A DNA stretch of 64,000 nt, taken from positions 549,901 through 613,900 of the forward strand of contig NW_001865048.1 in NCBI RefSeq assembly GCF_000002865.3, in the 5' to 3' direction. Source of the DNA: Monosiga brevicollis MX1. Its lineage: Eukaryota; Opisthokonta; Choanoflagellata; Craspedida; Salpingoecidae. Below, one piece after another: positions 17,901 to 18,792 of this stretch (positions are counted from its first letter, which is position 1; the number at the start of each line of letters is the position of its first letter). A program made the position numbers and the translations under genes. The notes beneath the pieces were generated by a model that did not search any database, had not been told where the DNA came from, and worked only from the letters and a program-made list of their open reading frames with translations.

Positions 17901-18792
17901 ACGCTTGTTGCCGAGCCTACTCGGGGCCCGCCACCTCCTCCGCCACCGCGTCAACGGGCCACCACAGAGCCGGCTTCGGCGGGCGAGCCACGGCGGCGCA
18001 AGCTGGTGCGCGGCGGCAACAAGAAAGAGACGCCAGTCTTGCCCGAGTTCAGTGAGGCTATGAGTGCGCTATCAGCTTTAGACGATGTTTTGGACTCGCA
18101 ATCTGCTCGTGAGCAAGCACTTGATCGCATGGCCGCCAACATCACGGAAGCTGAGGTTGTGCAACGTCGCGAAAGTCATCGCGCGAGTCGGCGCGGCAGC
18201 GAGCAACACGTCGACCCTACTGCGCCCAACCAAAGCCTGCGCGACCTGGAAGCCACTTTACGGCAACAGGCCCCGCGCCTTGATGTGAGCCAGGCATCAA
18301 CCACAGCTGACAACCGCATGTCCCACCGCACTGAATATTCCTACTTATCGACGTCACATACCTCGCGGACGTTGTCTCCCGAGGACTCTGGTTCAGGCGT
18401 TTTGGATGCGAGTCTTGAGCCATCCTCACCGGATGCGAGTTTGGCGGACTCTACTCGAGCGCAGGACCTTGCACCACCCCCCATGTTGGGCCGACACATG
18501 CGACGAGACAGCTCGGCCTTGGCGTTACCCGCAGACTTTGGCGCCAATTTAACAGAGACGCAGCGCATTGCCATCTTCAACTTGGTTCGTGCCGGCGAAA
18601 TGACTGTCTCGGAAGCCCTTGAGCATGTACGTTTGATCTCGCTGCTCTCTCGCCTAGTGCAACCTGCCCCACGCAAATCATTTTGCTTTTGAGCTTTTGT
18701 TTTCCTCTCTCTGCTCACCTGATCCTGCCCTGCATACGTGACCTTTTTAGGCTGCCGAGCAGCAGCAGCGGAAAAACTGCAGCATCCAATGA
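11969..18792 (+). CDS. Unconventional myosin with a four-copy repeat tail and C-terminal CAAX box
   Basis: Actin-based motor, about 1,700 residues. The start is the ATG at 11969 (MSMVFRSRR). The motor signatures are intact: P-loop [12 protein letters not shown] (about 12757), switch [16 protein letters not shown] (13013), and switch II DIFGFE assembled across an intron ending near 14238. The TEDS-rule position before DALAK appears to be Glu, so the motor may not need heavy-chain phosphorylation. There is no N-terminal SH3-like or kinase domain. One IQ-type motif follows ([17 protein letters not shown], about 15860), then a long Glu/Arg/Ala-rich helical region (16063-16800), Pro-rich segments, four copies of an [23 protein letters not shown] repeat (17112-18105), and a Ser-rich end. 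A phase-0 intron (18627-18750, GTACGT to TTTTAG) adds a last exon of 13 codons ending CSIQ and a stop at 18790-18792. Reading through the intron instead gives a stop at 18692. I cannot assign a myosin class. Confidence 0.92.
17112..18105 (+). repeat. Four-copy protein repeat in the myosin tail
   Basis: Copies start at 17112, 17430, 17697 and 17985. Each encodes (E)[14 protein letters not shown] (copy 2 has RRRQLVRGG), then a (T/A)PVLPE(Y/F) motif and an amphipathic stretch of the type [11 protein letters not shown]. Copies 2 and 3 continue with GQSIRIKA. Copies are 267-318 bases apart and are joined by Pro-rich linkers. The core is much better conserved than the linkers. I do not recognise this repeat as a known domain. 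Confidence 0.9.
18627..18750 (+). other. Last myosin intron, deciding between two C-termini
   Basis: A 124-base intron with a strong GTACGT donor and a TTTTAG acceptor, in phase 0 on both sides. Splicing gives an end of ...SEALEH then [13 protein letters not shown]. Retention gives a different 22-residue tail ending KSFCF. Confidence 0.75.

Follow-up and report, generated by a model that had tools for sequence, protein, structure and literature searches.

Lipid-binding domains or adaptors are the usual means by which myosins are brought to membranes, and a motor tethered to the membrane by a lipid of its own seems uncommon. Among the closest known systems is that of Dictyostelium, in which MyoK, whose tail is very short and which belongs to class I, carries the farnesylation site of the pair formed by MyoB and MyoK. 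One paper mentions these two proteins together, as myosins linked to membranes through lipid-binding or farnesylation sites. An engineered counterpart also exists: in PMC8352590, a full-length myosin that was given a terminal CAAX motif (DdMyo7-CAAX) localized robustly to the cortex, and a CAAX box is therefore able to act on a myosin tail. For choanoflagellates, PMC3942036 reports an expansion of myosin III-like proteins, 15 in Monosiga brevicollis and 18 in Salpingoeca rosetta, among which tail domains have been exchanged. The terms farnesyl, prenyl, and CAAX are absent from the main text of three comparative myosin papers, PMC3942036 included. Within the open-access literature, no phrase denoting a farnesylated or prenylated myosin was found, nor any paper in which CSIQ occurs together with farnesyltransferase; since most subscription papers lie outside that literature, this does not imply that such proteins are unreported. 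A preliminary description of this locus had called prenylated myosins very rare, which is consistent with the open-access literature searched.

The gene considered here lies in a 64,000-nucleotide stretch of M. brevicollis DNA, the whole of which is referred to as the window. It differs from MyoK, with its class I motor and very short tail, in combining a motor that is probably III-like with a tail of 868 amino acids that contains proline-rich runs and four repeats. DdMyo7-CAAX is an artificial fusion, whereas the tetrapeptide CSIQ is the natural ending of the present gene model. The tail swapping described for the III-like expansion in PMC3942036 is also seen in L005/L045, the top-scoring of 14 myosin loci of the same genome that were compared; unlike the III-like tails described there, the present tail has no Pfam domain and carries a predicted lipidation signal instead. 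We consider it probable that the gene encodes a III-like myosin whose tail is farnesylated through a CAAX box, encoded in a terminal exon of its own of 13 codons, and thereby gains a weak affinity for membranes. The locus is best read as that of a farnesylated myosin, and the lipidation itself is something that we infer from sequence.

The motor and its class

The myosin gene model spans 11969..18792 on the forward strand and comprises 17 exons separated by 16 GT-AG introns of 76 to 157 nt. Exon borders were set by hand-picking GT-AG joins from three forward frames that read as myosin, and the resulting reading frame runs through 1,696 codons with no stop. In a Pfam scan of four frames, Myosin_head was matched in the three frames that hold motor exons. 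The best match of the motor in the PDB was myosin X (E = 1.2e-133), followed by myosins VIIa and XV, and class III myosin is absent among the best 60 PDB matches listed. The P-loop (GESGAGKT, 12752..12775), switch I (NDNSSRFG, 13029-13052), and switch II (14123-14261, interrupted by an intron) lie on the forward strand. Because all three of these motifs are present, the motor looks catalytically competent. One degenerate IQ-like site for a light chain, called by eye, is located at 15868..15903 on the same strand.

Comparison with paralogs, not a tree, suggests that this is probably a motor of the "myosin III-like" group of choanoflagellates. The comparison covered 14 of the 26 other myosin loci, most of them represented in part. 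Identity to L005, L003, and L034 was 34 to 44% over the matched pieces. By summed score the nearest of the 14 was L005, with 40.5% identity over its matched pieces; L034 reached a higher identity (44.1%) over shorter pieces. Judged by eye, L034 has an SH2-like tail and L003 an SH2 tail, and the tail of L005/L045 has tyrosine phosphatase, SH3, and SAM domains. Paralogs with phosphatase- and SH2-type tails fit the tail-exchanging III-like expansion of PMC3942036. L045 itself (G000:C53:1595500-1601500) is a paralogous myosin with downstream frames that contain a tyrosine phosphatase, several SH3 domains, and a SAM domain.

Metazoan class III myosins have a related motor, provided that the gene is indeed III-like. 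Those proteins carry an N-terminal protein kinase, whereas no kinase was found ahead of the present motor in the 10 forward-strand frames of 82 to 200 amino acids between positions 9710 and 12283. A CxxX ending was found neither in any of the seven paralog frames that terminate in a stop nor in the last frame of L045, which ends in ...QETDF; among these ends, only that one and ...TPAKK of L001 resemble true C termini. It is possible, on balance doubtful, that a lipid anchor was gained as an exchangeable tail module during the choanoflagellate myosin expansion, independently of MyoK, with the splicing of the exon deciding whether the protein binds membranes.

The predicted C-terminal CAAX box and the genes for prenylation

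The CAAX box CSIQ is encoded at 18778..18789 on the forward strand, and its cysteine is residue 1693 of the 1,696 in the spliced model. With the predicted junction in place, Cys1693 stands exactly four residues from the C terminus, and it is the sole cysteine after residue 828, that is, in the 868-residue tail. CSIQ has an aliphatic residue, isoleucine, at a2 and glutamine, of the farnesyltransferase type, at X; by the specificity rule for that enzyme, isoleucine at a2 and glutamine at X make a good substrate tetrapeptide. The 11 residues preceding the cysteine are hydrophilic, and PMC1175975 describes a flexible, hydrophilic linker of about 11 residues ahead of the CAAX cysteine. A partly hydrophobic and probably helical stretch falls within 20 residues upstream of the cysteine; the scoring of PrePS includes a penalty for a buried helix, and this stretch was counted against the CAAX reading.

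The enzymes needed for a CAAX ending to matter were looked for in the same genome. The prenyltransferase beta family is represented by four loci. The exon at G000:C32 (L039) matches farnesyltransferase beta in the PDB at E = 1.8e-22, compared with 3.1e-9 for GGTase-I beta, and a separate GGTase-I beta exon is found on C54 (L036; PDB, 8.5e-35). L038, also on C54, matches Rab GGTase beta in the PDB (7.2e-39). L037 appears by eye to be a Rab geranylgeranyltransferase beta as well, so that together with L038 there may be two such subunits in one genome. An exon for the alpha subunit shared as FT/GGT1 alpha lies on C27 (5.1e-13), ICMT lies on C51 (Pfam, 1.2e-6; PDB S-isoprenylcysteine methyltransferase, 1.9e-10), and an Rce1-like protein is encoded by a single open frame on C53 (Pfam, 6.4e-16), for which the PDB held nothing at E ≤ 0.01. 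The same Pfam families were matched in prokaryote controls, the Rce1-like family in 11 of 14 and ICMT in 5 of 14, and family names are thus insufficient to prove CAAX processing. With genes for farnesyltransferase, ICMT, and an Rce1-like protein present, the genome very probably encodes a CAAX-processing pathway.

The CAAX box proposed in the preliminary description accordingly gains support from the splice model, from the sole tail cysteine at position -4, from the hydrophilic stretch that precedes it, and from the farnesyltransferase, ICMT, and Rce1-like genes of the genome. The intron and last exon could also be real while CSIQ is fortuitous and is either unprenylated in the cell or prenylated without consequence, an alternative that we rate as unlikely. 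Fitting words do arise by chance: of 182 CxxX-stop words in the window (both strands, all frames), 6, with CSIQ among them, fit the pattern C[not D/E/P][ILVM][SMQAC]. Read unspliced, CSIQ is preceded by an open run of 9 codons, as short as most of the other five words (2, 9, 11, 12, and 42 codons); because only these 9 open codons precede it in its own exon, it is the intron that turns CSIQ into the end of the gene. Published per-protein overall false-positive rates (PMC1175975, Table 3), which are 0.29% with the CAAX pattern of Prosite and 0.11% with PrePS-FT, correspond to a 3 to 8% chance of a fortuitous CAAX ending in one of 27 myosin loci, a number of loci that is a lower bound obtained by clustering 106 motor matches in the genome; this chance, too, was counted against the CAAX reading. 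Searches with the tail in the genome and in viral and prokaryote contigs gave no confirmed relative, and with it no evidence that the cysteine is conserved. Against an accidental origin, the chance words were drawn from all stops in six frames, whereas CSIQ ends a well-supported gene model, and the tail is otherwise free of cysteine over 868 residues. The quality of the tetrapeptide as a farnesyltransferase substrate and the suitability of the residues before it point the same way.

If the myosin is farnesylated, splicing of the last intron would expose Cys1693 to farnesylation by the genome's own farnesyltransferase, an Rce1-type protease would then cut off SIQ, and ICMT would methylate the newly exposed end. 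As is known for Ras proteins, a lone farnesyl group generally anchors weakly when neither a second cysteine nor an adjoining polybasic stretch assists it. This tail has no second cysteine, and beside the CAAX box there is only R-K. The preliminary description had the lipid anchor fix the motor to membranes, which overstates its effect given these features of the tail and the known weakness of a lone farnesyl. We hypothesize that farnesyl would provide a weak membrane affinity that acts jointly with other contacts of the tail; because a lone farnesyl anchors weakly, basic repeats or SH3 partners would need to assist, and the candidates for such contacts are the SH3-type proline runs and the four basic repeats. 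The motor may in this way couple actin to the membrane, roughly as has been proposed for Dictyostelium MyoK. If this is true, the gene would be a natural case beside MyoK, that of a motor with a long tail in an organism closely related to animals, and would suggest that lipid anchors arose more than once in myosins. Farnesyltransferase inhibitors would then offer a drug-testable handle on membrane-actin coupling in such organisms.

The last intron and the end of the gene

The last intron occupies 18627..18750 on the forward strand (124 nt, phase 0) and links ...TVSEALEH to the 13 codons of the last exon (18751..18792), GCTGCCGAGCAGCAGCAGCGGAAAAACTGCAGCATCCAATGA, which reads to CSIQ. The 124-nt phase-0 intron and the 13-codon exon had been reported earlier, and on rereading of the sequence the coordinates and peptide proved exact. 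The donor, GTACGTTT, begins at 18627, and the acceptor, TTTTTAG, has its last base at 18750. Splice signals were scored with matrices trained on the remaining 15 introns, and each of these was left out in turn for its own score. The donor scored 9.36, compared with 0.04 to 8.08 for the other 15 under leave-one-out; it ranks at the top of the 108 GTs in 16100-18900, and only 0.25% of the 3,594 forward-strand GTs in the window reach its score. The acceptor is average, with a score of 5.25 (rank 7 of 203 AGs in 16100-18900) that 4.2% of the window's 4,221 AGs equal or exceed. As a pair, 18627-18750 scored 14.61 and ranked first of 1,025 GT-AG pairs of 60 to 200 nt in 16100-18900. The T content of the intron is 37%, within the 20 to 41% of the other 15 introns; exon 16 has 16%, and its 124-nt windows have at most 29%. 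The junction 18626/18751 is a prediction, though a strong one. CSIQ would be preserved if any of the in-frame AGs at 18759, 18762, 18765, and 18768 downstream served as the acceptor or if 18585 were paired with 18750, and it would be lost with the AG at 18782.

A different end of the gene, with the CAAX exon outside the main mRNA, appears improbable. It would arise if the intron were retained, in which case 21 codons remain open beyond the donor up to a stop at 18692, or if the pair 18585-18657 were used, which gives an ending of ...PALHT with no CAAX box and scores nearly as high (14.48 against 14.61). At 73 nt, however, that pair would be shorter than all 16 introns of the model, and it would cut away the end of the segment that precedes the last intron. 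It would also make 18658-18738 coding, with a T content of 36% compared with a maximum of 32% for 81-nt windows from exon 16 up to 18584, a modest difference, and the donor at 18627 outscores all other GTs in the region. Regulated intron retention or alternative splicing that toggles between soluble and membrane-bound isoforms, as the preliminary description had suggested, is compatible with a farnesylated myosin and fits a box that stands alone in its own exon and is removed either by retention or by use of 18585-18657, but it is very improbable as an explanation, since the donor is strong and not weak, the same would happen to every box encoded by a terminal exon when the intron before it is retained, and nothing seen points to regulation.

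Tail sequence and neighboring genes

Exon 16 (16063..18626, forward strand) holds a stretch rich in E, K, R, Q, and A that is probably helical, followed by a proline-rich tail. The frame of exon 16 has no Pfam match at E ≤ 0.1. Four near-identical 22-residue repeats of the form EPRRR(K/Q)-15 residues-(Y/F), separated by proline-rich linkers, are encoded on the forward strand at 17112-17177, 17430-17495, 17697-17762, and 17985-18050; they have no Pfam match and no clear counterpart elsewhere in the genome, and these basic repeats may take part in membrane contact. A 32-residue run rich in PxxP (17307..17402, forward strand) is a possible SH3 ligand. Directly 5' of the last intron, a probably helical segment of 26 residues (18549..18626, forward strand) gave a weak SHOCT-like match (PF22746; E = 0.0044, 17.0 bits against a cutoff of 27), and among tail pieces searched against Pfam at E ≤ 10, DUF6366 was also matched (E = 0.34).

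Searches for relatives of the tail point to a sequence with no clear paralog in this genome. The last 539 amino acids gave a single low-complexity proline match in the PDB (E = 0.67), and the last 44 residues gave none. A search of the genome with 585 amino acids of tail (16872-18626) returned the tail itself and one weak match with 34% identity (E = 1.95). Pattern matches to the tail numbered 9 in viral contigs and 240 in prokaryote genome contigs, none of which was confirmed.

A PNO1-like KH gene on the reverse strand (19526-20739) is convergent with the myosin gene and bounds the myosin 3' region. Its frame at 20068-20739 has no Pfam match, and 19526-19903 matches KH_PNO1_2nd at 9e-40. Upstream of the myosin gene, on the opposite strand, a frame at 9305-9952 encodes a FYVE zinc finger (Pfam FYVE, 1.3e-18).
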